DNA of 64,000 nt from Saccharopolyspora ipomoeae. Its GTDB lineage: Bacteria > Actinomycetota > Actinomycetes > Mycobacteriales > Pseudonocardiaceae. Below the pieces are notes generated by a model. The model was not told the origin of the DNA, searched no databases, and saw nothing but the letters and a program-made list of their open reading frames with translations. Position 1 is the first letter of the stretch, and each line of letters starts with the position of its first letter. The stretch spans positions 124,001-188,000 of the forward strand of contig NZ_JASAOF010000001.1 of assembly GCF_029952525.1 (NCBI RefSeq), read 5' to 3'. A program made the translations under genes and the position numbers. Shown here piece by piece: positions 15,815 through 37,273 of the stretch.

Positions 15815-16951
15815 GTGAACACCCCCGCCGTCGAGGCCGCACCGGCCCGCGCTCCCGACCAGGTGTTGACCTTCGGCGTCGAGGAGGAGTTCCTCGTCGT
15901 CGATCCGCGCACCGGTGAGCCGTCCGACGGCGGACCGGGCGTCCTGGCCGGTGTCTCCGTCCTCGACCCGCAGCAGGGAGCCCACCCCGAACTGCTGACC
16001 GCGCAGACCGAGGCCAGCACCGGCGTGTGCGGCGCGCTGGCGCAGCTGCGCGGCGAGCTGCGCGCGGGACGGGACCGGATGGCCCTCGCCGCGCGCGAGG
16101 AGGGCCTGGCGCTGATCACCTCCGGCACGCCTCCCCTGCCGGGCGCGCCCAGCCCGGTCTCGCCGGGCGCGCGATTCGCGCGGATCGCCGAGACCTACCG
16201 GGCGGTGGTCACCGACTACCAGGCCTGCGGCTGCCACGTGCACGTGGGCGTGCCCGACAGGGAAACGGCGGTGGCCGTGATCAACCACCTGCACCGGTGG
16301 TTGCCGTCGCTGCTGGCGATGTCGGCGAACTCCCCGTTCCACCTCGGCGACGACACCGGCTACGCGAGCTGGCGCATGGTGCAGCAGTCCCGGTTCCCCG
16401 GTTCGGGGATCCCGCCGCACTTCGCCTCCGCGGCCGATCACGACCGGCAGGTCGAGCGGCTGGTGGACTGCGGGGTGCTCGTCGACGGTGCCATGTCGTT
16501 CTGGCTCGCCCGCCCGTCCCCGCACCTGCCGACCGTGGAACTGCGGGTCGCCGACGCCGCCACCACCGTCGGCGAAGCCGTGCTGCAGGCCGCGCTGAGC
16601 CGGGCGCTCGTCCGCACCGCGCTGCGCGAGCTGTCGGCGGGGCGCGAGGCGCCCCGCACCGACGAGCGGCTCACGCAGGCCGCGGTGTGGACCGCGGCCC
16701 GCCACGGGCTCGACGGGCCGGGGATCGACCTGGTCGAGACCAGGCGCGTCCCGGCCGCCGAACTCGTCCACGCCATGGTCCGGTGGGCCTCTCCCGCGCT
16801 GGAGGAGACCCGCGACCTGGTCGTGGTCCGCAAGCTCCTCGCCGGGCTGCTGCACTGCGGCACCGGCGCCCGCAGGCAGCGCGCGGCGGCCGCCCGGGGA
16901 GCGCTGCTGCCCGCGCTGCAGATCCGACCCCGATGGGAGGGAGCCCGATGA
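15815..16951 (+). CDS. carboxylate-amine ligase, YbdK-type glutamate-cysteine ligase
   Basis: Family GCS2 ATP-dependent ligase; YbdK/EgtA-type enzymes join glutamate to cysteine or a similar amine. The GTG at 15815 has a GAGGAGG ribosome site nine bases upstream; the product is 378 residues. Marks: LTFGVEEEFLVVDP (18-31), the metal-binding CGCHVHVGVPD and WRMVQQSRFPG. The next gene overlaps by four bases. An EgtA role in ergothioneine synthesis is possible but no egtBCDE genes are nearby. Confidence 0.88.
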   Translation: MNTPAVEAAPARAPDQVLTFGVEEEFLVVDPRTGEPSDGGPGVLAGVSVLDPQQGAHPELLTAQTEASTGVCGALAQLRGELRAGRDRMALAAREEGLALITSGTPPLPGAPSPVSPGARFARIAETYRAVVTDYQACGCHVHVGVPDRETAVAVINHLHRWLPSLLAMSANSPFHLGDDTGYASWRMVQQSRFPGSGIPPHFASAADHDRQVERLVDCGVLVDGAMSFWLARPSPHLPTVELRVADAATTVGEAVLQAALSRALVRTALRELSAGREAPRTDERLTQAAVWTAARHGLDGPGIDLVETRRVPAAELVHAMVRWASPALEETRDLVVVRKLLAGLLHCGTGARRQRAAAARGALLPALQIRPRWEGAR

Positions 16952-17949
16952 CCGCGCTGCCGCACCCGCGAGGCCCGCTGTCGGAGGCCGTCACCACCGC
17001 GCTGACGGGCGCGGCCCCGGTGCCACCGCCCGCCGCGGCGCGCGGCCACGACCCGTTCGGCGACGACCTCGCGCTCGCCCTGCACACCTGCTACGAACTG
17101 CACTACCGCGGCTTCGACGACGTCTCGCCGGACTGGGAGTGGGAGCCGGAGCTGCTGGCGCTGCGGGCCGAGATGGAGCGCTCCTTCCTGGACGCGCTGC
17201 GCGAGCAGGTCCGCGTCTCCGACGACGTCACCGGAGCGCTCGACGGGCTGCTGGTGGAAACCGTTCCGGGCAGCGGGGTTTCGCACCACCTGCGCGATCG
17301 CGGCGAGTGGTGGCAGCTGCGGGAGCACTTCGCGCACCGCTCGATCTACCACCTCAAGGAGGCCGACCCGCACGCGTGGGTGATCCCCCGGCTGCAGGGC
17401 CGGGCGAAGGCCGCGCTGGTGGCGGTGGAGTTCGACGAGTTCGGTGGCGGCCGAGGCGACCGCGTCCACGCCCGCCTGTTCGCCGACCTGCTGGAAGGCG
17501 CGGGCCTGTCGCCGGAGTACCTGCACTACCTGGACGTGGTGCCCGCACCGCAGATCCGCATCGTCAACCTCATGTCGCTGCTGGGACTGCACCGGGGTTT
17601 GCGCGGCGCGCTGGTCGGGCACTTCGCCGACGCCGAGATCACCACCGCACCCAGCGCGCAACGCCTGGCCACCGGGCTGCACCGGCTCGGGGCGGCACCC
17701 GAGTGCGTGCACTTCTACACCGAGCACGTCGAGGCCGACGCCGTGCACGAGCAGGTGCTGCGCCGCGACGTCATCGGCGACCTGCTGGACCGCGAACCGC
17801 ACCTGGCCACCGACGTCGTCTTCGGGATCGAGGCCACCGAGTTCCTGGAAGCGAAGCTCTCCGAGCACCTGCTGGACGCGTGGGGTGCGGGCCGCACCTC
17901 CCTGCTCAGCCCGCTCGACGGGGCACCGCAGCTCGCTGCGAGCGGGTGA
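16948..17949 (+). CDS. iron-containing redox enzyme family protein (haem-oxygenase-like fold)
   Basis: 333 residues; helical, with histidine/glutamate-rich helices typical of the haem-oxygenase-like diiron fold: HTCYELHYRGF, REHFAHRSIYHLKEADPHAW, VEFDEFGGG, HFYTEHVEADAVHEQ. These H/E pairs could bind a di-metal centre as in the HDO family of oxidases. Translationally coupled to the YbdK-type ligase, so the two probably act on the same metabolite. The exact reaction is unknown. Confidence 0.75.
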   Translation: MTALPHPRGPLSEAVTTALTGAAPVPPPAAARGHDPFGDDLALALHTCYELHYRGFDDVSPDWEWEPELLALRAEMERSFLDALREQVRVSDDVTGALDGLLVETVPGSGVSHHLRDRGEWWQLREHFAHRSIYHLKEADPHAWVIPRLQGRAKAALVAVEFDEFGGGRGDRVHARLFADLLEGAGLSPEYLHYLDVVPAPQIRIVNLMSLLGLHRGLRGALVGHFADAEITTAPSAQRLATGLHRLGAAPECVHFYTEHVEADAVHEQVLRRDVIGDLLDREPHLATDVVFGIEATEFLEAKLSEHLLDAWGAGRTSLLSPLDGAPQLAASG

Positions 17950-17998
17950 CCGCCGGTCGAGAATCGGACCGTCACCGGAGTCGACTCGGGAGTCACCC

Positions 17999-26670: not shown

Positions 26671-27830
26671 GTGTCGGTGCGGAAGCTGGTGCGGCGAGTC
26701 CGGTCCGGGTTCGATCGCGCGTGGTACGCGGCGGTGCGGGCGTGGCCGCTGTCGCTGGTGGCGCTGGGCGCGCTGCTGATCGCGGTCGCGCTGCTGCCGG
26801 TGGCGGTCGGGATCGCGCCGGCGGTGCTCCTGCTGTGCTGGGCGGTGTCCTGCTGGCCGCGCACCTGCGCGGGGTGCGCGGCCGCTGGGCCGGTCACGAC
26901 TTCTCCCCCGCCGCAGAACCGTTTCCGCACACCGAGATCGGAGTTCCGGCCGCCTACCCGGAGTCCTGGTTCGTGCCGCTGGCCGGTCGCGGGACGGCGC
27001 TGCTCAGCGACGACATCGACCACGCCGTGCGGGAGCGCCGCTTCGCGGTGCGCCTGGCCGAGCGGCCCTACCGGCCCGCGCCGCTGCTGCGCGCGACCGC
27101 ACCGCACCTGCCGGCCCTGCGCTCGGCGGAGAGCCCGCTGTTCAACGGCCCGGTGGTGGGGTTGCGCACCGATCCGCTGCCGGGCCCCGGCGATGCCGAG
27201 GTGCGGCTGCACCGGGCTCGCTTCTTCGACTTCCAGTGCTCCAACGAGCTGTGCGGCCTGCGGATCGCCGAACGCGGGTCCGGCGAGGTGTTCGACGCCC
27301 GCCGCGCGCTGCTGACCGATGCGGCGGGCCGGTTGCGACCGCTCGACGCCGGTGAGCTCGCCGACGTGGTGGGCGTGTCGACGCTGGCGTTCACCACCGA
27401 TGGGCTGCTGGTGATCGTCGGCGACGGCGACCCGTCCGGCAGCGGCTCGCTGGAGCCGCGGGACCTGGTCACCGCGGACGGTGCGCCGCGCCGGGAGCTG
27501 GCCGAGGTGCTGTGCACCGGCATGGAGCGCGAGCTGCGCGAGGAGACCGGGCTGGCGCGGGGTTCGGTTGCCGGAACCGAGCTCACCGGGTTCGCGCGGT
27601 GGATGGAGCGCGGCGGGAAACCGGAGTTCTTCGGCATCACCCGGCTGTCGGTGTCCAGCGCGAGCCTGCACGGCGACGACGTGTCGTTCCTGGAGGTCGA
27701 CCTGGCGACGCTGCGCCGGGAGCTGCGCACCGGCGCGGGCCTGCTGGAGGCGCCGAGCCTCCCGCAGCCGATCCGGGAGCACGGGACGCTGCCGCTGCTG
27801 CTGGCGATCCGCGCGGCGGCGCTGCGGTAG
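26671..27830 (+). pseudogene. membrane-anchored Nudix-like protein with a frameshift
   Basis: From the GTG at 26671 the first frame gives a basic N-terminus and two membrane helices (WPLSLVALGALLIAVALLPV...) to about residue 58. Conserved-looking sequence then continues in the -1 frame from about 26845 (GGVLLAAHLRGVRGRWAGHDF) to the stop at 27830. That part ends in a Nudix-box match (MERELREETGLARG) of hydrolases acting on nucleoside diphosphates linked to X. One base appears to be missing in the tgctgggcgg stretch near 26835-26850. The alternative reading is an intact soluble CDS starting at the GTG at 26874. Sequencing error or true mutation cannot be separated here. Confidence 0.6.
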
Positions 27831-27893
27831 GGGAATCCTTCAGCTCCGCACCGGGAATCACCGATGGCGACCGGTCGCGGATCTTCCTAGCGT
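27826..27893 (+). promoter_or_regulatory. promoter with bipartite cluster operator, upstream of the MHS transporter
   Basis: Box 1 GGTAGGGGAATCCTTCAG at 27826-27843, box 2 GGGAATCACCGAT at 27853-27865 and a -10-like TAGCGT at 27888-27893. Two further promoters of the same cluster (31529 and 33246) carry matching boxes, with 43-45 bases between box 1 and the -10 hexamer. Confidence 0.6.
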
Positions 27894-27934
27894 TGATCGG
27901 CACGAGGCGGTTCCTCGACCGAGAAGGACGCGCC

Positions 27935-29237
27935 ATGCCTGTGCTCAGCGAGAACGGCGCGCGCACCGGTGCCGGGCGGATCGGCCTGGCCAGCGGGGTG
28001 GGTGCGACGCTGGAGTTCTACGACTTCGCGATCTACGGCACCGCCGCGGCCCTGGTGTTCGGGCAGATCTTCTTCCTCAGCGACGACGAGTGGTTCGGCG
28101 CCTTCCTGGGGCTGGCGACGTTCGCCGTCGGGTTCCTGTTCACACCGCTCGGAGCGCTGCTGTTCGGCTGGGTCGGCGACCGGTTCGGGCGCCGGTTCTC
28201 GCTGCTGCTGACGTTCGCGGTGATGGGGTCGGCGACGCTGCTGATGGGCGTGCTGCCCTCGTACCTGGCGATCGGGATCACCGCACCCCTGCTGCTGATC
28301 GTGCTGCGCGTGTTCCACGGGCTGGCGCGCGGCGGGGAGATCGGGGGCGCGGCGGTGCTGGCCGTCGAGCACGCGCCCGCGCACCGCCGGGGCCTGTACG
28401 GGTCGTTCGCCGCGCTGGGCTCGCCGCTCGGGCAGCTGCTGGCGAACCTGGCCTTCTCGCTGGTCCTGCTGATGCCGATGCGGGCCCGTGATCGACTGGG
28501 GCTGGCGGGTGCCGTTCCTGGTCGGCGGGCTCGTGCTGGCGCTGGGCGTGTGGGCGCGGCGCGGTGTCGCCGAGACGCCGGAGTTCGCGGCGCTGCCGCG
28601 CGACCGGAAAACCCCTCTCGCAGCGGTGCTCCGGGAGGGCTGGCGGCGGTTGATGCTGGCGGCCGGGGTGAACCTGGGGCTCAACGCCAACATGTTCATC
28701 CTCGCGACGTTCATGCTCTCCTACGCCACCGCCGCCGCACCGCAGGGCCTCGCGCTGCCGAGGCAGCCGATCGTGCTGGGCAGCGTCGTCGGGTTGCTGT
28801 GCCACTCGGTCACGATCGTGCTGGCCTGCTGGTTGTCGGACCGGCTGGGCCGCAAACCGGTGATGCTGTCGGGAGCGGTGGCCGCGCTGGCCTACGCGCT
28901 GGTGATGTTCCGGATCGCCGACATCGGCACGCCGCTGGCCGTGGGGGTGGCGGTGATCATCGGGTTCACCCTCGGCGGGTTCCTGTTCGGGCCGCTGCTG
29001 ACCTACTTCTCGGAGCTGTTCAGCGTCGAGCAGCGGCAGTCCGGGGTGGGGCTGGCGTTCCAGCTCGGCAGCGTGCTCGGCGGCGGGCTCGCGCCGGTCA
29101 TCGCCAACCGGCTGATCGCGGTCACCGGCAGCTCGACCGCCGTCGGCTGCTACATCGCCGCCGGGTTGCTGGTGTCGCTGCCGTGCCTGCTCGCCCTGCC
29201 CGAAACCGCGCCCGCGCGCACGAGAGGAGCCGCATGA
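27935..29237 (+). pseudogene. MHS-family MFS transporter with a +1 frameshift
   Basis: Metabolite:H+ symporter-type MFS protein, about 434 residues when corrected. The ATG at 27935 opens RIGLASGVGATLEFYDFAIYGTAAALVFG, the MHS signature, and GDRFGRRFSLLLTF (motif A). The frame leaves homology at about 28480 (LLMPMRA) and resumes one base later as VIDWGWRVPFLVGGLVLALG, running to the TGA at 29237. One extra C in the run at 28484-28487 explains it. Likely an aromatic-acid uptake carrier for this catabolic cluster. The disruption is either an assembly error or would make uptake defective. Its stop overlaps the next gene (ATGA). Confidence 0.8.
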
Positions 29238-29782
29238 CCGAGTCGACGATCGCCGCGCTGACCAGGCGGATCGAGGTGCTGGAGGCCGAGGCCGAGGTCC
29301 GCCGGATCCAGGCCCGGTACCTGTTCCTGTGCGACACGCCGTGCCCGGAGTTCGGGGTGCGCGACGACGCCGAGCGCATCGACAGGATCATCGAGCTCTA
29401 CGCCCCCGACGCTGTCTGGGAGGGCGTGGGCGAGCACTACGACGGCCAGTTCGGGCGCGCCGAGGGGCACGCGGCGATCCGGGCGCACTTCGAGCGGTTC
29501 TGGAGCCGGGAGCCGGCGCTGGTGCTCAACGCGCACTACCTGACCTCGGAGCAGATCCGCGTGGACGGCGACGAGGCGACCGGGCTGTGGATCCACCTGC
29601 AGCCGTGGCTGTTCGCCGACGGCAGCGGGGTGCTGCGCTCCAGCAGGCTCAACAACGCCTTCCGCCGGGACCCCGACGGCTGGAAGATCACCCGCACGCG
29701 CACCGAGAACGTGCTCATCGCTCCCCTGCCCGCGCGGTTCGCCACCGACCACCCGACGGCGTCGGTGCTGCTGGACCCGTAA
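29234..29782 (+). CDS. SnoaL-like (NTF2-fold) protein, candidate IacI
   Basis: 182 residues; starts with a coiled helix (TRRIEVLEAEAEVRRIQARYLFLCD) and the NTF2/SnoaL pattern DRIIELYAPDAVWEGVGEHYDG. Translationally coupled to the MHS transporter and in the same cluster as flavin-monooxygenase and Rieske oxygenase genes. The iac clusters of proteobacteria include a small protein of this kind, IacI; the assignment here rests on context. Confidence 0.7.
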   Translation: MTESTIAALTRRIEVLEAEAEVRRIQARYLFLCDTPCPEFGVRDDAERIDRIIELYAPDAVWEGVGEHYDGQFGRAEGHAAIRAHFERFWSREPALVLNAHYLTSEQIRVDGDEATGLWIHLQPWLFADGSGVLRSSRLNNAFRRDPDGWKITRTRTENVLIAPLPARFATDHPTASVLLDP

Positions 29783-29855
29783 CCAGATCGGACCTGTCCG
29801 GGAGCCGTTCCGGCTGCCTAGTCTTGTCCTGTTCCCTGGTTCGCCTGGAGGGATC

Positions 29856-30476
29856 TTGACGACGTCTTCCACCCCGGTGGTGCACATCGTCGACGACGAC
29901 GAGGCGCACCGGCAGTCCCTGGTGTTCCTGCTCAGGACGGTCGGCGTGCAGGCGCTGACCTACCCGGACGCGACCGGGTTCCTCGACGAGTTCGACCCGG
30001 CCGAGCCCGGTGTGGTGATCGTCGACGTGCGGATGCCCGGGTTGAGCGGGTTCCAGCTGCAGGAGGCGCTGTTCGAGCGGGAGTACCCGGCGCCGGTGAT
30101 CTTCTGCTCGGCGCACGGCGACATCCCGATGTCGGTGCGCGCGATGCGCCTCGGCGCGGTGGACTTCCTGGAGAAGCCGTACGAACCGCAGCGCATGCTC
30201 GACGTCGTCCAGGACCAGCTGCGCGAGGCCGAGCAGTCCTTCACCGCCCACGCCGAACGCCTGCGCGTCCGCGAGCGGATCTCGACCCTCACCCCGCGCG
30301 AGCGCGAGGTCCTGCGCCTGGTCGTCGACGGCCTCTCCAGCCAGCTCATCGCCCGGAACCTCGGCACCAGCGTGAAAACCGTTGACGTGCACCGAGCCCG
30401 CATCAAGGCCAAGACGAACGCCGACAGCCTCGGCACCCTGGTCCGAGACCTCCTCCACCACTCGATCCCCCTCTGA
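29856..30476 (+). CDS. FixJ-family response regulator
   Basis: 206 residues from a TTG at 29856 behind tggaggga. The receiver domain has acidic residues D13-D15, phospho-acceptor D57 in VVIVDVRMPG and the lysine in FLEKPYEP; a LuxR-type helix-turn-helix follows (LTPREREVLRLVVDGLSSQLIARNLGTSVKTVDVHRARI). Its natural partner is the PAS histidine kinase at 31622-33112. FixJ/StyR-type systems commonly control aromatic catabolism, and the bipartite promoter element in this cluster is its likely binding site. Its own promoter shows TGCCTAGTCT, similar to the other -10 regions, but no box 1. Confidence 0.88.
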   Translation: MTTSSTPVVHIVDDDEAHRQSLVFLLRTVGVQALTYPDATGFLDEFDPAEPGVVIVDVRMPGLSGFQLQEALFEREYPAPVIFCSAHGDIPMSVRAMRLGAVDFLEKPYEPQRMLDVVQDQLREAEQSFTAHAERLRVRERISTLTPREREVLRLVVDGLSSQLIARNLGTSVKTVDVHRARIKAKTNADSLGTLVRDLLHHSIPL

Positions 30477-30485
30477 CCCCACGAA

Positions 30486-30767
30486 GTTCTCATGAAAACT
30501 GACACCGGAGGTCGATGTCCAGATGAACGAAGTTTTCATGAAAACTTCCCCCACCCCCAAACCAACCAAACCGAGGAACCCCAAGGAGGAAAAGTCGAAA
30601 CCCCCTCTTCACCAAACCCTTTCATCGACCACGAGGCGATCGGCTCTCGATTGAGTGAGACAGTTTTCATGAAAACTGACACCGGAGAACGACCTCGGGG
30701 TGGGAAAGTTTTCATGAAAACTGACATCGGAGGTTGACGTTGGGGTGGGGGAGGTTTTCATGAGAAC
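30486..30767. repeat. array of five palindromic repeats (core GTTTTCATGAAAAC)
   Basis: Copies at 30486-30499 (one mismatch), 30532-30545, 30663-30676, 30708-30721 and 30754-30767 (one mismatch). The second extends to a perfect 20-bp palindrome (30529-30548), the third to 18 bp (30661-30678). Adjacent copies are 45-46 bases apart and three are followed by TGACAYCGGAG; the later two intervals contain GGGGTGGG. The array fills the space between two convergent genes and covers the stop codon of the gene at 30758. Confidence 0.9.
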
Positions 30768-31039
30768 TTCGTTTGGTCGGGTTCGGTCCAGGTGGCTTCG
30801 GCCGTCCAGTAGTGCATGCCCGAGGGGCTGATGCCGTGGTGCCACGGGGTGGTGCGGCGCAGGAGGGGTTCGACCCGGGCGGTGGCGGCGTCGGCGGCGT
30901 CCGGGCCGTCGGCGTCGACGAGCCAGTGGACCCATTCGAGCTCGCGGCCCGCGGTGTCGTGGACGAACAGGTCGACGTGCCGCCAGCCGTAGCCGTGGGT
31001 GTCCTCGTAGCAGGTCAGGGTCATCTTCCGGTCATCCAC
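30758..31039 (-). CDS. hypothetical protein (93 aa)
   Basis: Starts at a GTG at 31039 with gggag upstream, overlapping the flavin reductase gene by eight bases; an internal ATG at 31024 is an alternative. Soluble, rich in aromatic residues and histidine (YGWRHVDLFVHDTAG, WVHWLVDADGPDAAD, TTPWHHGISPSGMHYWTAEATW). Not recognised. Coupling to the flavin reductase suggests a role in the same pathway. Confidence 0.65.
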   Translation of the reverse strand: MDDRKMTLTCYEDTHGYGWRHVDLFVHDTAGRELEWVHWLVDADGPDAADAATARVEPLLRRTTPWHHGISPSGMHYWTAEATWTEPDQTKFS

Positions 31040-31529
31040 GACGCGCTCCCGCCAGGCTGTGGAACTCCCGCTGGAAGTACACGAGGCCGCCGCTGCCGGA
31101 GCGTGTGATCACCCGCTCGACCTCGACGAACATCACCGAGTGCGAACCCTGCGCGCGCACCTGGCTCAAGCGCCCGATCAGCGAGGCGGCCGCGTCGCGC
31201 AGCACCGGCACCTCGGCGAAGTCGCAGACCTCGCCGGTGAACCGCTCGTGCATCGGCAGCGCCCCGGCGAAGCGCAGCGCCAGGTCCCGCTGACCGGATC
31301 CGAGGACGTTGACGCAGGCCCGCTCGTTGGCCGCGAGCACGTCGTGGGCGCGGCTGGCGCGGTGCACGCACACCAGCATCGTCGGCGGCTCGTCGGTGAC
31401 CGAGCAGGCTGCGCTGACGGTGATGCCGGCCCGTCCGCGCGGCCCGTCGGTGGTGACGATGTTGACCCCGGCCGACAGGTTCGCCATCGCCGCGCGGAAC
31501 TCGCGCTGCGCGGCCGTCAGATCTGCCAC
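31032..31529 (-). CDS. flavin reductase (HpaC/IacG type)
   Basis: 165-residue FMN-binding split-barrel flavin reductase from a GTG at 31529 (ribosome site gggaggagg). Marks: FRAAMANLSAGVNIVTTDGPRGRAGITVSAACSVTDEPPTMLVCV and the terminal GLVYFQREFHSL. It would supply reduced flavin to the acyl-CoA-dehydrogenase-like monooxygenase at 33246. Occupies the iacG role in the proposed pathway. It has its own promoter with the cluster operator. Confidence 0.85.
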   Translation of the reverse strand: MADLTAAQREFRAAMANLSAGVNIVTTDGPRGRAGITVSAACSVTDEPPTMLVCVHRASRAHDVLAANERACVNVLGSGQRDLALRFAGALPMHERFTGEVCDFAEVPVLRDAAASLIGRLSQVRAQGSHSVMFVEVERVITRSGSGGLVYFQREFHSLAGARRG

Positions 31530-31578
31530 ACCGCCTCCTCCCACCGGCTTCCCCGCGAACCTACGGCCGCCGACCACC

Positions 31579-31626
31579 CGCCCGGTATCGAGATTTCCCC
31601 GCCGCACCCTGAAGTTTTCCCCTACC
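31579..31626 (-). promoter_or_regulatory. bipartite cluster operator upstream of flavin reductase
   Basis: On the minus strand: box 1 GGTAGGGGAAAACTTCAG (31626-31609), box 2 GGGAAATCTCGAT (31599-31587), then a -10-like TAGGTT 45 bases after box 1. Box 1 overlaps the end of the kinase gene. Same order, orientation of box 2 and spacing as the promoters at 27826 and 33147. Confidence 0.55.
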
Positions 31627-33112
31627 CGGGCGGCAGCGAGAAGCCGAAGACGGAGCCTCCGCCGTCGCGGGGTTCGCACCAGATGGCGCCGTGCTGGCGG
31701 TTGATGATGCGGTGGCTCAGCGCGAGTCCGATGCCGCTGCCGTGCTCCTTGCTGGTGAAGGAGTCGGCGAACACGTCCTCGCGCACGCCGCGTCCCCGGT
31801 CGGCGACGGTGACCGTGCCGCCGTCCTCGCGGGTCTCGGTGACCAGCTCGACGCGCCGGTCCTCCGCGTCGGCCGCGACGATCTCGTCGATGGCGTTGAA
31901 GCACAGGTTGAGCACCACCTGCCCGGTCAGCACCCGTTCGCAGCGCACCGGGACCGGTTCCGGGCTCGCCCGCACCACGACCTCCACGCCCGCCGAATCG
32001 GCGCGCAACCGCACGAAGTAGAGGCATTCGTCGAGCACCGCGTTGAGGTCGACGACCTGCTCGACGTGTTCGAGGTGGCCGACGAACGAGCGCAGCGCGC
32101 CGACGATCGCCGACACCCGGTCGATCTGCCGGTTCGCGCTGTCCAGCCCGTATTCGAGCGCGGCGGTGGTGCCGTCCGGGACCTGGCCGGAGGTTTCGAG
32201 CGCGTGGGCGTGGGCGCGGACCCCGGCGAGGAAGTTGGCCGCGGCGGCCAGCGGCTGGCCGAGCTCGTGGGCGATGGCCATCGCCATGTCGCCCATCGCG
32301 TTGTAGCGGGCCAGGTAGTTCTCGTGCCGGAGCTCCAGTTCGCGCCGCTGCTCGCCGCGCACCCGGGTGGAGACGTCGTGCAGGATCATCAGGAACGCGT
32401 CGACGTCGCGCAGCCGTTCCAGACCGCCCTCCAGCGTCACGGGTTCGGCGCCGGGGATCTCCAGCCGCACGGGCGCGACCGGGTCGGCCGCGGCGGACGC
32501 CTCCGCCCAGCTGGTCTCGGCTCCGTCGCGGCGCAGCCGGGCGTAGGACTCCAGCAGCCGCCCGACGGGCGGGTCGGTGTCACCGGACAGTCCGAGGTGG
32601 GCCAGGGCGGTGTCGGTGGCGAACCGGATCGCTCCGCCGGCGTCGAGCATGAACGCCACGGTCGCGGTGTGCCGGGCGAGGGCGTCGACGTAGGAGGTGG
32701 TCTGGCGCAGCTCGGCCTCCACCCGCTGCTCCCGCTCGACGTCCCGGAACTGCACCATCACCGCAGGTCCCTGGGCCAGTTCGACGCGCACCGCGACGGC
32801 GTCGGTGGGGATGACGCGGCCGGATCTGGACCGGTAGTGCCACTCGATGCGGCTCATGCCCTTCTCGACCGCGTCCTGCAGCCACGCCCGGCCGATCACG
32901 CGGTCGTACTGCTGGGCGGAGCTGCTCATGTGGTTGGCCTTGAGCGGCCGCAGCTCGCTGACGCTCCACTCCAGCAGCGCGCAGGCCGCCGGGTTGGCCC
33001 ACAGGATGTTCTTGGTCGCCGCGTCGTGGATCAGCACGCACAGGTGGGAGGCGCGCATCATCGCGACGAAGTCGGAGTCCACCAGTTCGGGAGCCTGCGG
33101 GTCGACCACCAC
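31622..33112 (-). CDS. PAS-domain sensor histidine kinase (FixL-like)
   Basis: 496 residues from a GTG at 33112, no membrane segments. Two PAS-like regions (about 15-125, with FRDVE at its end, and 140-245), then the phosphoacceptor helix MGDMAMAIAHELGQPLAAAANF (H282), N-box NLCFNAIDE and G-boxes DRGRGVREDVF and KEHGSGIGLALSHRIINRQHGA. Soluble PAS kinases of this type sense cytoplasmic ligands, here probably the aromatic substrate. Partner of the FixJ-type regulator at 29856. Divergent from the iacA-E-like operon. Confidence 0.88.
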   Translation of the reverse strand: MVVDPQAPELVDSDFVAMMRASHLCVLIHDAATKNILWANPAACALLEWSVSELRPLKANHMSSSAQQYDRVIGRAWLQDAVEKGMSRIEWHYRSRSGRVIPTDAVAVRVELAQGPAVMVQFRDVEREQRVEAELRQTTSYVDALARHTATVAFMLDAGGAIRFATDTALAHLGLSGDTDPPVGRLLESYARLRRDGAETSWAEASAAADPVAPVRLEIPGAEPVTLEGGLERLRDVDAFLMILHDVSTRVRGEQRRELELRHENYLARYNAMGDMAMAIAHELGQPLAAAANFLAGVRAHAHALETSGQVPDGTTAALEYGLDSANRQIDRVSAIVGALRSFVGHLEHVEQVVDLNAVLDECLYFVRLRADSAGVEVVVRASPEPVPVRCERVLTGQVVLNLCFNAIDEIVAADAEDRRVELVTETREDGGTVTVADRGRGVREDVFADSFTSKEHGSGIGLALSHRIINRQHGAIWCEPRDGGGSVFGFSLPPG

Positions 33113-33146
33113 CGCCCCAGGTTAGATCCCCGTTGAGGCACCGTCG

Positions 33147-33213
33147 CTGAAGATTTCCCCTACCCGCCACCTGGGCAATCCCGATGTCCTCGCGCGCCGT
33201 CGCTGCCTAGCGT
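33147..33213 (+). promoter_or_regulatory. promoter with bipartite cluster operator, upstream of the iacA-like operon
   Basis: Box 1 is inverted here (CTGAAGATTTCCCCTACC, 33147-33164), box 2 GGGCAATCCCGAT follows at 33173-33185 in the usual orientation, and TAGCGT at 33208-33213 is the -10-like element, 43 bases after box 1. The site also lies upstream of the divergent kinase gene, so it may serve both. Confidence 0.6.
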
Positions 33214-33245: not shown

Positions 33246-34379
33246 ATGCCCCAGGGAACCGCCGGTGGCGCGCTGTGGGAGTCGGTGCTGGCCGAGCTCG
33301 CCGAGCGCCGCGAGGAGTTCCACGCGCAGTCCTACGTCCCGCGCGACTTCGTCGGCAGGCTCAAGGAGCTGGGCCTGTTCCGCGCCTCCACCCCGGCCCG
33401 CTTCGGCGGCGATCCGATGTCGCCGCCGGAGTTCCTGCGCGCGGTCGAGCGGATCTCGGCGGTGGACGGATCGACGGGCTGGGTGGCCGGTTTCGGCTCG
33501 GCGGGCACCTACCTGGCGTGCCTGCCGCTGGACACCCAGGCCGAGCTCTACGCCGATGGGCCGGACGTGGTCTACGGCGGCGCGATGTTCCCGGTCAACC
33601 CGGTCACCCGCACCGACGGCGGCTACCTGATCGAGGGCCGGTGGCGGTTCGCCAGCGGCTGCATGGGCGCCGACCTGCTCAGCGTCGGCATCCCCGGCGA
33701 CGCCGACGGCGACAACCGGCCGCGCGCGGCGATGCTGCGGCCCGAGCAGGTCGAGATCGTGCGGGACTGGGACGTCACCGGCATGCGTGCTTCGGGCTCG
33801 TTCGACGTGGTCGTCGACGGCGTGGAGGTGCCGCGCGAGTGGACGTTCATCCGGGGCGGCGAGCCGTGCGTGGACGAGCCGCTGTACCGCTACCCCGCCA
33901 TCGGCTACCAGGCCCAGGTGCACGCCGCGGTGGGCCTGGGGGTGGCGCGGGCGGCCCTGGATTTCGCCTCGCGGGCGGGGGCACGCACCGGCGTCACGGG
34001 CGCGCCGCCGCTGGCCGACCGGGCCTACTACCGCACCGGGTACGCCCAAGCGGTGGCGGCGATGCGGTCGGCGCGGGCGTTCTACTACGAGGTCGCCGAG
34101 GAGGTCTGGGGCGCGGTCGACGGCGGCGCGGACGTCTCCGACGAGCAGAACGCGCTGGTCAGGCTCTCGGCGACGCACGTGGCGGCGACCGCGGCGCAGG
34201 TGGTGCACGAGGTGTGCGGGTTCTCCGGGACCGCGACCATCGACAACGCCCACCCGCTGCAGCGGATGCGCCAGGACTCGCAGGTGCCTGCGCTGCACGC
34301 GTTCCTGATGCCCTCGATGTACGACGCCGCCGGGGCCGTGCTGCTCGGGCGGCCGCCGACGGTGCCGGGTTTCCGCTGA
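33246..34379 (+). CDS. flavin-dependent monooxygenase, acyl-CoA dehydrogenase fold (candidate IacA)
   Basis: 377 residues. The ATG at 33246 is chosen over the GTG at 33240 because GAGGAG lies seven bases before it. Acyl-CoA dehydrogenase/HsaA-type oxygenase: LKELGLFRASTPARFGGD, ERISAVDGSTGWVAGFGSAGTYLA, RWRFASGCMGADL, VTGMRASGSFDVVVDGVEVP, and C-terminal QVVHEVCGFSGTATIDNAHPLQRMRQDSQV. Group D flavin monooxygenases of this fold use FMNH2/FADH2 from a separate reductase (31032-31529). In the iac pathway IacA oxygenates the indole ring of indole-3-acetate. First gene of a five-gene operon. Confidence 0.82.
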   Translation: MPQGTAGGALWESVLAELAERREEFHAQSYVPRDFVGRLKELGLFRASTPARFGGDPMSPPEFLRAVERISAVDGSTGWVAGFGSAGTYLACLPLDTQAELYADGPDVVYGGAMFPVNPVTRTDGGYLIEGRWRFASGCMGADLLSVGIPGDADGDNRPRAAMLRPEQVEIVRDWDVTGMRASGSFDVVVDGVEVPREWTFIRGGEPCVDEPLYRYPAIGYQAQVHAAVGLGVARAALDFASRAGARTGVTGAPPLADRAYYRTGYAQAVAAMRSARAFYYEVAEEVWGAVDGGADVSDEQNALVRLSATHVAATAAQVVHEVCGFSGTATIDNAHPLQRMRQDSQVPALHAFLMPSMYDAAGAVLLGRPPTVPGFR

Positions 34380-34399
34380 CCTCGACCCAGGGAGCTGAC

Positions 34400-34768
34400 A
34401 TGACCGCTGCTGCCCCGCTGCGGGTGCTGTTCTGCATCGGCATCAACCAGAACTTCTTCGACCTGCCCCGCGACGGCGTCACCGCCGGCGACGTGTGGAC
34501 GGCGTTCGTCGCGATGATGGACGGCATCAAGGCGCTGCCCGGGGTGGACTTCATCGGCGACATCGACGACGACAGCCACCTGGTCGGCCCGTCGGACACG
34601 TGGCCGTGGACCTGCTACCTGCTGGCCGACGTCGACTCCCAGGAGACGGTCAAGGCCGTCTGCGACCTGTTCCGAACCGTCCACATCGGACGATCGGAGT
34701 GGAAGTTGTGGAAGTACGCCAAGATCGAAGCCCGGATCGGCCGGGCGCTCACGCCGCGCGAGTACTGA
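34400..34768 (+). CDS. small conserved protein, candidate IacB
   Basis: 122 residues, soluble, with a ferredoxin-like alpha/beta-barrel (EthD-type) appearance: RVLFCIGINQNFFDL, VDFIGDIDDDSHLVGPS, WPWTCYLLADVDSQETVKAVCDLFRTV and KLWKYAKIEARIGRAL. The GINQNFF...WPWT.Y.LAD...RT pattern and the position between IacA- and IacC-like genes match IacB as I recall it. It is essential for some iac strains but its reaction is unsettled. Nine bases separate it from the next gene. Confidence 0.65.
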   Translation: MTAAAPLRVLFCIGINQNFFDLPRDGVTAGDVWTAFVAMMDGIKALPGVDFIGDIDDDSHLVGPSDTWPWTCYLLADVDSQETVKAVCDLFRTVHIGRSEWKLWKYAKIEARIGRALTPREY

Positions 34769-34777
34769 GGTGACCCG

Positions 34778-36064
34778 ATGACCGCGAGCAACGCGCACGA
34801 CCTGGCGCCGTCCGACCTCGTCGCGCCCGACCGGGTCGCCGGGCGGATCTACACCGACCCGGCGATCTTCGAGCTGGAGATGTCGCGGATCTTCGAACGC
34901 AGCTGGGTGTGGGTCGCCCACGACAGCGAGCTGCCCGAGCCGGGCACCTTCAAGTCCACCCACGTCGGCAGGCAGCCGGTGATCGTCACCCGCGACCGCC
35001 GCGGCGAGGTCCGCACGGTGCTCAACCGCTGCCGCCACCGGGGCGCCAGCGTGTGCGAGCGGAAGTCCGGGCGCGCCAACGGTTTCACCTGCCCGTACCA
35101 CGCGTGGTCCTACGGCCTGGACGGGTCGCTGCGCGGTGTCCCCTACCCGGACGGCTACACCGGGGTGCTGGACCGCAGCGGGATGGGGCTCCAGCGGCTG
35201 CGCACCGAGTCCTACGGCGGGATGATCTTCGCGACGTTCGCCGAGGACGCCGGACCGCTGGCCGAGTTCCTGGGCGACGCGCGGGGCTGGATCGACCGGT
35301 TCATGCGGCAGGGCGGCGGGTATCCGGTGAAAGTGCTGGGCACGCACCGGTTCCGGTTCAGCGGGAACTGGAAGATCCAGCTGGAGAACACCACCGACGG
35401 CTACCACTTCCCCATCGTGCACCGGTCCTGGATGGCGTCGGTGGACGCCGAGACGGCGAACATGATGAGCTTCATGACCGACCCGCGGGCCATCACGCAC
35501 GCCCTCGGCAACGGGCACTCGGTGATGCAGATGGTGCCCGAGCACTCCGACCTCGACGCCGACGACGGCACGGAGAAGCTGCAGGACCGCTTCGCGGGTC
35601 TCATCGGGCGGCTGGAGTCGGAGGGCGTCGAGGCGGCCGAGATCCGGCGGCTGGTGCGCGCGATGCACGGCACCGGGTTCAACCTCAACCTTTTCCCGAA
35701 CGTGTCGTGCTCGATCTCGTTCTTCCGGGTGCTGAGGCCGATCGGCGTCGGCGAGACGGAGATCGAGCACATCGCGATCGGCCCGGACGGGCCGCCGGAG
35801 ATCACCGGCCCGGTCAACCGCGAGCGGCTGCGCGCCCACGAGCACTTCCAGGGACCGTTCGGGTTCGGCACGCCCGACGACGCCGAGGGCTGGGACCGGG
35901 TGCAGCGGGGCGCGGCGGGCGCCCCGGAGATGCCGATCATGGTCAACCGGGGTCTGGGCCGCGAGGAGCCGTCGCCGGAGGGCTGGCCGACCTCGCACGT
36001 CACCGACGAGACCGGCATGCGCGCTGCCTACGCGCAGTGGAAGGCGATGATGGCCGATGACTGA
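34778..36064 (+). CDS. aromatic-ring-hydroxylating dioxygenase alpha subunit, Rieske type (candidate IacC)
   Basis: 428 residues. Rieske [2Fe-2S] ligands CRHRG (C85, H87) and CPYHAWSYG (C105, H108), then the mononuclear iron site in ENTTDGYHFPIVH (D207 bridging, H210 and H215 as ligands). Length and motifs are those of a full alpha subunit. With the beta subunit overlapping downstream, it would form the terminal oxygenase acting on an aromatic ring. In iac pathways IacCD converts an oxindole intermediate toward catechol. No ferredoxin or reductase gene is in the cluster. Confidence 0.88.
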   Translation: MTASNAHDLAPSDLVAPDRVAGRIYTDPAIFELEMSRIFERSWVWVAHDSELPEPGTFKSTHVGRQPVIVTRDRRGEVRTVLNRCRHRGASVCERKSGRANGFTCPYHAWSYGLDGSLRGVPYPDGYTGVLDRSGMGLQRLRTESYGGMIFATFAEDAGPLAEFLGDARGWIDRFMRQGGGYPVKVLGTHRFRFSGNWKIQLENTTDGYHFPIVHRSWMASVDAETANMMSFMTDPRAITHALGNGHSVMQMVPEHSDLDADDGTEKLQDRFAGLIGRLESEGVEAAEIRRLVRAMHGTGFNLNLFPNVSCSISFFRVLRPIGVGETEIEHIAIGPDGPPEITGPVNRERLRAHEHFQGPFGFGTPDDAEGWDRVQRGAAGAPEMPIMVNRGLGREEPSPEGWPTSHVTDETGMRAAYAQWKAMMADD

Positions 36065-36548
36065 GGTGCGGAACCCGGTGGACGCGCGGGTGACCCGCGC
36101 GATCGCGCTGGTGTGGCGGGAGGCCGAGCTGCTCGACCGCAAGGACTACGCGGCCTGGCAGGAGCTCTACGCCGACGACGGGATCTACGTCGTCCCGATC
36201 GACCGCGACGCCGAGGAGTTCGACGACGTGCTCAACATGGTCTACGACGACCGGCGGATGCGCCGGCTGCGGGTGAACCGGATGACCGAGGGCTACGCGA
36301 TCGCCGCCGTGGATTCGGCGGTCACGGTCCGCACGGTCTCCCGCTTCACCACCACCAGGGTCTCCGACGCCGAGGTGTCGCTGCGCGCCGCGCAGGTGCT
36401 GGTGGCCTACAAGCGCGGCACCCACGACCTGTGGGCGGCGGACGTGGACTACACGATCCGGCTGGGAACCGAGGACACGTTGGCCCGCAAGGTGGTTCGT
36501 CTGGTCAACAGCGACGATGCCGTTCCGGCAGCGGGATTCCTGCTGTGA
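36057..36548 (+). CDS. aromatic-ring-hydroxylating dioxygenase beta subunit (candidate IacD)
   Basis: 163 residues with the SnoaL/NTF2-like fold of ring-hydroxylating beta subunits: VWREAELLDRKDYAAWQELYADDGIYVVP and YDDRRMRRLRVNRMTEGYA, the conserved DDR-R-R--R block. It overlaps the alpha-subunit gene by eight bases and the dehydrogenase gene by four. Structural partner of the Rieske alpha subunit. Confidence 0.87.
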   Translation: MTEVRNPVDARVTRAIALVWREAELLDRKDYAAWQELYADDGIYVVPIDRDAEEFDDVLNMVYDDRRMRRLRVNRMTEGYAIAAVDSAVTVRTVSRFTTTRVSDAEVSLRAAQVLVAYKRGTHDLWAADVDYTIRLGTEDTLARKVVRLVNSDDAVPAAGFLL

Positions 36549-37273
36549 CGGCCGTGGTCACCGGCGGCGCGAGCGGGCTGGGCGCGGTGATCGCCCGGCG
36601 CTTGCACGCGGACGGGCACGCGGTGGCGATCGCCGACGTCGACGGCGAGGGCGCCCGGGACCTGGCCGCCGCGCTGGACCCCGCGACCGCGCGCGGGCAC
36701 ACCGCCGACGTCACCGACCGGGCGGCGCTGGTCGGCCTCCTGGAGTCGGTGCGCGCCGAGTTCGGGCCGGTCCAGGTGCTGGTGAACAACGCGGCGCGCA
36801 CGCGGGCCACGCCGCTGCTCGAGATCGGCCCGGAGGAGCTGGAGGAGGTCATGGCGGTCAACTTCACCGGCACCTTCCACGCCTGCCAGATCTTCGGCCA
36901 GCACATGGCCGAGCAGGGATACGGCCGGATCGTGAACATGGCATCGCTGGCCGGGCAGAACGGCGGGACGGCCACCGGGGGCCACTACGCGTCGTCGAAG
37001 GGCGCGATCATGTCGGCCACGAAGGTCTTCGCCCGCGAGCTCGCCGCCCGGGGCGTGACGGTCAACGCCGTCTCCCCCGGCCCGCAGGACTCGCCGACGG
37101 TCCGCGCCATCGTCGGCGAGCGGAACCTGGAGGCGTTCCAGCGCGCGATCCCGGTCGGCAGGCTCGGCGACCCCGCCTTCGTCGCCGACGCGGTCGCCCT
37201 GCTGGCCTCCCCGGCGGCCCACTCGGTCACCGGCGCGTGCTGGGACATCAACGGAGGCCTGCACATGCGGTGA
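36545..37273 (+). CDS. short-chain dehydrogenase/reductase (candidate IacE)
   Basis: 242 residues from a GTG at 36545 that overlaps the beta-subunit stop. Classical SDR: cofactor loop TGGASGLG (6-13), NNAA (81-84), catalytic S134, Y148 and K152 (YASSK), then SPGPQDSPTVR. Last gene of the iacA-B-C-D-E-like operon; IacE is an SDR whose step is not firmly assigned. It probably oxidises or reduces a ring-hydroxylated intermediate. Confidence 0.85.
   Translation: MTAVVTGGASGLGAVIARRLHADGHAVAIADVDGEGARDLAAALDPATARGHTADVTDRAALVGLLESVRAEFGPVQVLVNNAARTRATPLLEIGPEELEEVMAVNFTGTFHACQIFGQHMAEQGYGRIVNMASLAGQNGGTATGGHYASSKGAIMSATKVFARELAARGVTVNAVSPGPQDSPTVRAIVGERNLEAFQRAIPVGRLGDPAFVADAVALLASPAAHSVTGACWDINGGLHMR

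Follow-up and report, generated by a model that had tools for sequence, protein, structure and literature searches.

Three promoters of a predicted auxin-catabolism cluster in Saccharopolyspora ipomoeae share a two-part element, box 1 followed by box 2, within the 64,000-nucleotide stretch that we analysed (contig NZ_JASAOF010000001.1, positions 124,001 to 188,000; hereafter the window). We propose that a FixJ-type two-component system encoded in the same island uses these boxes as its operator and activates auxin catabolism and its own synthesis, a reading to which our sequence comparisons lead us to assign a probability of about 0.87. Five lines of evidence bear directly on it: the sequence of the boxes, their conservation in relatives, their spacing, the co-occurrence of regulator and catabolic genes, and the resemblance of box 1 to the published FixJ site.

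The element and the genes that it precedes

The initial annotation had placed box 1, box 2 and a TAG-containing hexamer at three promoters, with the hexamer 44, 45 and 43 bases after box 1, and we found all of these elements and spacings where it had put them. A search of the whole genome (6,632,632 bases in 47 contigs) for box 1, GGTAGGGGAANNCTTCAG, with no mismatches returned three copies, at the sites that we call A, B and C; the exact box is therefore confined to the island and does not occur at chance level across the genome. Box 1 is an imperfect palindrome of 18 bp, and the inverted orientation reported for it at the third site, though correct as described, is for that reason no anomaly. 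The features of the locus are as follows, in window coordinates, with operators, promoters and gene functions given as predictions.

27826..27843, plus strand: site A box 1, distal operator of the transporter-SnoaL-regulator unit; exact match, centred about -64 from the predicted start, with corresponding sites in relatives
27853..27865, plus strand: site A box 2, promoter-proximal degenerate operator adjoining the -35 region; in register, 21-22 bp from box 1
27888..27893, plus strand: predicted -10 TAGCGT of promoter A, at offset 44 after box 1
27935..29237, plus strand: MFS transporter gene, split by a frameshift near 28490 into two ORFs that lie in different frames
29234..29782, plus strand: gene for a SnoaL-like protein, start inferred from the translation; adjoins the regulator in most fetched relatives
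29856..30476, plus strand: FixJ-type response regulator, the proposed box binder; Response_reg and GerE domains
31032..31529, minus strand: flavin reductase (iacG-like), Pfam Flavin_Reduct
31558..31563, minus strand: predicted -10 TAGGTT of promoter B, at offset 45 after box 1
31587..31599, minus strand: site B box 2, promoter-proximal degenerate operator, by sequence and register with box 1
31609..31626, minus strand: site B box 1, distal operator; exact match, contains the kinase stop codon
31622..33112, minus strand: PAS sensor histidine kinase, predicted leaderless transcript; HATPase_c and PAS domains, nearest NCBIfam model FixL in the kinase core only
33119..33124, minus strand: predicted -10 TAACCT of the divergent kinase promoter, at offset 22 from box 1 and 6 bases before the start codon
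33147..33164, minus strand: site C box 1, shared operator, distal (about -64) for iacA and proximal (about -43) for the kinase
33173..33185, plus strand: site C box 2, promoter-proximal degenerate operator for iacA, by sequence and register with box 1
33208..33213, plus strand: predicted -10 TAGCGT of the iacA promoter, at offset 43-44 after box 1
33246..37273, plus strand: iacA-iacB-iacC-iacD-iacE-like operon, named by homology (acyl-CoA-dehydrogenase-like oxygenase, small protein, Rieske alpha and beta subunits, SDR)

The regulator at 29856, which is probably co-transcribed from promoter A, carries the domain pair PF00072 and PF00196 of FixJ/NarL-type two-component regulators, and the solved structures nearest to it are FixJ (5xso, E 1.9e-46) and 1yio, which we take to be StyR. 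The motif TVDVHR of the helix-turn-helix region is constant in the seven regulators that we compared from kinase-regulator pairs of this kind. In the kinase, of 496 residues, the match to FixL is confined to the kinase core (residues 254-494), and Pfam detects only PAS and HATPase_c domains, with no internal receiver domain of the kind that defines StyS-type hybrid kinases. The catabolic genes, in which iacA, B, C, D and E are clustered with the flavin reductase gene iacG, have the domain content and order of an iac auxin-catabolism locus, and IacC shares 56-63% identity with its counterparts in records from Cupriavidus, Burkholderia, Caballeronia and Acinetobacter; we therefore predict that the cluster degrades auxin. 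In a related genome (L131) the transporter is a single intact ORF of 448 amino acids, and the frameshift in the window is either a real loss or an assembly error.

When up to three mismatches to box 1 were allowed, the genome yielded 87 matches versus 14 for a reversed control pattern. About 70 of the 87, as counted from the listed matches, are arms of an unrelated high-copy palindrome, GGTGGGGGAAGTTTTCATGAAAACTTCCCCCACC, which is found genome-wide and also in intergenic sequence of the window at 30480-30770. The nearness of these copies, together with the GGGGAA core that they have in common with the boxes, might suggest that the boxes are themselves members of the repeat and stand at promoters by coincidence. 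This we consider extremely improbable, as the repeat copies listed show two or three differences at the 16 fixed positions of box 1 and are spread across the genome, whereas exact box 1 is restricted to the locus and relatives conserve it at a fixed spacing. A degenerate form of box 1 drawn from relatives, VTARGGRAWWNCYTYAV, matched the same three sites exactly in this genome and three others with one mismatch, with a single match for its control. These three additional sites were rejected, TAnnnT being absent at offsets 0-54 on either side of them.

Across 84,980 GTDB genomes, exact box 1 was found on 69 contigs, three of them from Saccharopolyspora (records of the S. ipomoeae genome itself may have been omitted); among the genomes named are S. 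flava, S. endophytica and S. rhizosphaerae. The remaining 66 contigs, from other organisms, were taken as chance matches and were not inspected.

Conservation in the Pseudonocardiaceae

We fetched 38 stretches from other Pseudonocardiaceae genomes, from which the kinase-iacA region could be extracted in 33 cases and the kinase-flavin reductase region in 31. With the window included, box 1 scored at least 14.5 bits in 32 of 32 kinase-flavin reductase regions (site B) and in 34 of 34 kinase-iacA regions (site C), using a matrix trained on those very regions. A second matrix, built from the three sites of the window with no use of relatives, placed its top match at the B or C promoter in 26 of 37 stretches, one stretch that ends at a contig end (L130) having been omitted; among the other 11 there were 8 in which the top match, of at least 20 bits, lay elsewhere in the same stretch. 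The site is thus conserved in orthologous promoters, as the proposal of the initial annotation implied. The 753 kb scanned contained 91 matches of at least 17 bits, none of them inside the iac-locus genes mapped there, and 5 Mb of first-order random sequence contained two on both strands together. We also scanned loci L004-L030 of the S. ipomoeae genome as a control, with top scores of at most 18.3 in 26 of the 27 and 26.0 in one, and did not use the result, which is biased because these loci had been fetched for their resemblance to box 1 and because L030 adjoins the window sites.

The regulator and the catabolic genes occur together. Among 390 Pseudonocardiaceae genomes, S. ipomoeae included, the regulator was found in 57 (E ≤ 1e-45) and iacC in 55 (E ≤ 1e-130), and all 55 genomes with iacC are among the 57 with the regulator. 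In one genome assembled as a single contig (G361), the only kinase match found (E ≤ 1e-10) and the only regulator match found (E ≤ 1e-45, with 8 of 80 candidates scored) lie side by side, 1.8 Mb from the iac genes, and a strong box of 30.7 bits is still present upstream of iacA.

Two of the fetched stretches carry sites before other kinds of gene. In L140 a site precedes an ORF read as muconate cycloisomerase and then one read as catechol dioxygenase, which fits the report, in the available text of PMC9613470, that catechol is the end product of iac-like loci; in L149 a site precedes a transporter ORF. In L142 no iacC or iacD was detected in the interval from iacB to iacE, and the kinase, the regulator and the sites are kept. 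In 25 of 32 B sites the kinase stop codon falls within box 1 (at 31622-31626 in the window, and in relatives), so that the last bases of the kinase gene belong to the candidate operator as well.

Spacing and promoter registers

The arrangement of boxes and -10 hexamers was examined in 99 sites, and hence 198 directions, from 41 stretches, 39 of which contain a site. The hexamer TAnnnT follows box 1 at an offset of 21-24 in 31 cases, 43-46 in 84 and 65-67 in 15, and at all other offsets from 0 to 99 in only 5; 96 of the 99 sites have it in one or more of these registers. At random positions, 0.33% of directions have the hexamer at one of the eight offsets 21-24 and 43-46. None of the 15 cases in the longest register has a hexamer in either of the other two in the same direction. 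If transcription starts 6-7 bases past TAnnnT, box 1 would be centred near -43, -64 or -86, and the three positions differ by steps of about 21-22 bp, equal to two helical turns.

Across the 84 promoters that have box 1 at -64, the bases separating it from the -10 hexamer best fit the box 1 matrix at a centre-to-centre spacing of 21-22 bp, which suggests that box 2 is probably, at most, a degenerate second copy of the operator lying that far downstream of box 1. The spacing from box 2 to the hexamer is itself nearly fixed, as would be expected if the boxes were -35-type elements of an alternative sigma factor and not the operator of an activator. We think this very unlikely: box 1 is dyad-like, is found in both orientations and occupies three registers in steps of about 21-22 bp, box 2 is similar to it, and the -10 element is a plain TAnnnT.

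The initial annotation counted three promoters. Its three sites are real, but four promoters are predicted, since the divergent promoter of the kinase gene (TAACCT, 33124-33119) had been overlooked: at site C a single box 1 is centred at -64 relative to iacA and at about -43 relative to the kinase. The kinase -10 hexamer ends six bases before the start codon, and a leaderless kinase mRNA is therefore predicted. The palindromy of box 1, the probable nature of box 2 as a second copy, the proposed autoregulation of the kinase gene and the probable expression of the regulator from site A likewise went unmentioned there. In the kinase promoters of L132, L133 and L134 there is one additional operator-like unit, with the register of 22 + 23 bp retained, and these promoters constitute a natural spacing experiment.

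In the mechanism that we infer, the PAS kinase would sense auxin or one of its breakdown products and phosphorylate the regulator encoded at 29856, a dimer of which would bind the quasi-palindromic box 1; box 2 would act as a weaker copy in the same register, 21-22 bp closer to the promoter and abutting the -35 region. Dimers on these tandem operators would then recruit RNA polymerase to the TAnnnT promoters, acting as activators and not as repressors, of the transporter-SnoaL-regulator unit, the flavin reductase gene and the iacA-E operon. The kinase gene would be a further target, through box 1 of site C read in the other direction. Control by the pair over its own regulator and kinase genes would make the whole a self-reinforcing catabolic switch.

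Comparison with FixJ and with other iac loci

The FixJ site of Sinorhizobium meliloti is a palindrome, TAAGTAATTTCCCTTA, and in rhizobia a TAAG element is present around -64 of fixK promoters, according to the accessible part of PMC4999443. Among the copies of the box, the most FixJ-like are GTAAGGAAAACCCTTAC in L149 and GTAGGTAATTTCCTTAG in L159, which by eye are near TAAGTAATTTCCCTTA and can be counted as FixJ-type palindromes; the window's own boxes are more distant from it, with at least two mismatches to the relaxed patterns described below.

A class-wide sample of 394 genomes contained iacC (E ≤ 1e-110) in the S. ipomoeae genome only, and the distant comparison was therefore made with plasmid records. 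There are 55 such records with a match to IacC, and 14 were fetched, chosen to span records with and without kinase matches; a locus is called kinase-less here when no kinase match lies inside the fetched stretch of about 25 kb, the rest of the genome being outside the scope of the term. Sites are still recognisable in the kinase-linked iac loci of Streptomyces, at 24.4 bits, and of Rhodococcus, at 16.1 and 14.3 bits. In the Betaproteobacteria the actinobacterial matrix fails, its top scores in kinase-linked L175-L177 being 9.6-11.5 bits versus up to 12.9 in kinase-less L173. When intergenic regions from that group were aligned, 22 of them flavin reductase-regulator and 8 kinase-iacA, the conserved dyads CTAGGTATTTTTACCTAG, TAGGTAGAACCTTTAG and TACGTAATTTCCTTA emerged; after them come more conserved blocks and a -10-like hexamer.

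Three relaxed patterns taken together, with at most one mismatch, matched 9 of 9 kinase-linked loci versus 0 of 8 kinase-less ones; they had been picked after L159, L175 and the FixJ site were viewed, just one of them agrees with the FixJ site itself, and they miss the window's own sites. The first of them occurs in 7 of 20 newly fetched Burkholderiaceae loci, and a related dyad, TAGGTA-N4-TACCTA, found afterwards by footprinting, in 12 of the other 13. Of 30 kinase-linked loci, 22 matched the loosest expression of the dyad (3.1 in shuffles), and of 8 kinase-less loci, where the matches are scattered, 3 did so (1.35 in shuffles). Not all of its matches are at promoters of interest (that of L172 is near the end of the stretch), and it misses L156, L158, L174-L177, L185 and L202. 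In the eight kinase-less iac stretches, of about 25 kb each, we found no convincing related dyad. Because the patterns are post hoc and miss the window sites, and because the first of them was found in only 7 of 20 loci, the claim across phyla is weaker than that within the family. We regard it as tentative, and somewhat short of an even chance, that a single FixJ-type auxin-responsive regulon, in which operator and catabolic genes go together with kinase and regulator, extends across two phyla or more (Actinomycetota and, through the Betaproteobacteria, a second) and also that its promoters are built from one to three operator units in steps of about 21-22 bp, with the number of units and the shared divergent operator setting promoter strength.

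Several observations weigh against the boxes being the operator of the linked FixJ-type pair. The 65-67 register was noticed only post hoc. The mean matrix score of box 2, from -18 to -20 bits, is a clear peak relative to about -30 to -50 at most other offsets and is nonetheless negative, and box 2 may be only a half-site or an element linked to the -35 region. With the matrix from the window alone, the top matches in L157, L158 and L159 are weak; L158 has no site at 14.5 bits, and neither do the 20 kb of L157, the stretch around the G361 kinase-regulator pair, which has no iac genes nearby. Among the matches listed, none is to an NCBIfam model that names Iac proteins and the enzymes score under the NCBIfam cut-offs, which is why auxin as the substrate is our prediction. 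The regulator scores 209 bits against the NCBIfam FixJ model NF006900, its best-matching model nonetheless, and with a cut-off of 255 bits it is not classed as a FixJ ortholog.

The pair without any site in L157 would also suit a different explanation, in which the boxes are bound by a regulator encoded elsewhere, for example of MarR or LysR type, and the linked pair controls something else. Some iac loci of other bacteria do carry or are controlled by MarR or LysR proteins, and binding of the boxes by the linked regulator is a prediction. We judge this explanation unlikely on the grounds that box 1 resembles the FixJ site, that the regulator is present in 55 of 55 iacC genomes, and that related dyads are found in kinase-linked loci of other orders and of a second phylum, with none convincing in the eight kinase-less loci. 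The assignment of the operator to the regulator at 29856, acting with the PAS kinase at 31622, was put forward in the initial annotation; it gains support from the FixJ-like site, the FixJ-closest structure and the co-occurrence, and also from the site kept at iacA in G361 at a distance from the pair and from the contrast of dyads between kinase-linked and kinase-less loci.

The proposed system resembles FixLJ and its target fixK in rhizobia in the architecture of the regulator, in the palindromic site and in a compound upstream region with TAAG around -64 (PMC4999443, in the part available). It is unlike FixLJ in that the latter governs nitrogen fixation and respiration and not, as predicted here, auxin catabolism, and in that our regulator falls under the FixJ equivalog cut-off and our kinase is FixL-like in its kinase core only. 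StyR, a FixJ-type protein, activates an aromatic catabolic operon by way of two sites, one of high affinity at about -40 and one upstream, as described in the accessible sections of PMC2442086, so that StyS/StyR of styrene catabolism likewise combines a FixJ-type regulator beside an aromatic catabolic operon with a two-site promoter. StyS, unlike the kinase here, in which no receiver was found, is a predicted hybrid kinase, and the strongest site here is mostly the distal one, at -64.

In iac-like operons, LuxR/IacS two-component genes are known from Pseudomonas and Paraburkholderia phytofirmans, for which two-component control has been proposed (PMC11630574), and iacS has been named for C. 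glathei (PMC7225977); the available portions of these two papers give no operator, whereas we describe a candidate operator across the Pseudonocardiaceae and a variant of it in the Burkholderiaceae. The control of auxin degradation is mostly described as MarR-type in what is available of PMC11630574, and the excerpted text of PMC11676955 reports a LysR-type regulator in P. xenovorans. The operons under MarR control (iac with IacR, iad with IadR) contain the same or related catabolic genes, but IacR and IadR are one-component repressors, and the eight kinase-less stretches contain no convincing FixJ-like operator. In the titles and abstract openings covered by our literature search, which mostly excluded subscription journals, no operator has been announced for the iac two-component systems.

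Soil and plant bacteria that degrade auxin shape root growth, and the present sites make up a precisely definable candidate activator operator for an actinobacterial auxin-catabolism-like cluster. This operator offers a cis-element for regulon annotation in the 55 iacC-bearing Pseudonocardiaceae genomes of our sample and a lead toward an auxin-sensing kinase that could be used as a biosensor, and the natural promoter series with box 1 at -43, -64 and -86 makes the relation between binding position and promoter strength directly testable. Finally, next to the operator-preceded transporter of L149, at about 15850-17960, are ORFs interpreted as a protein of the octopine/nopaline dehydrogenase type and a 3-hydroxyacyl-CoA dehydrogenase, and similarly named genes are annotated in the Acinetobacter iac plasmid locus L181.

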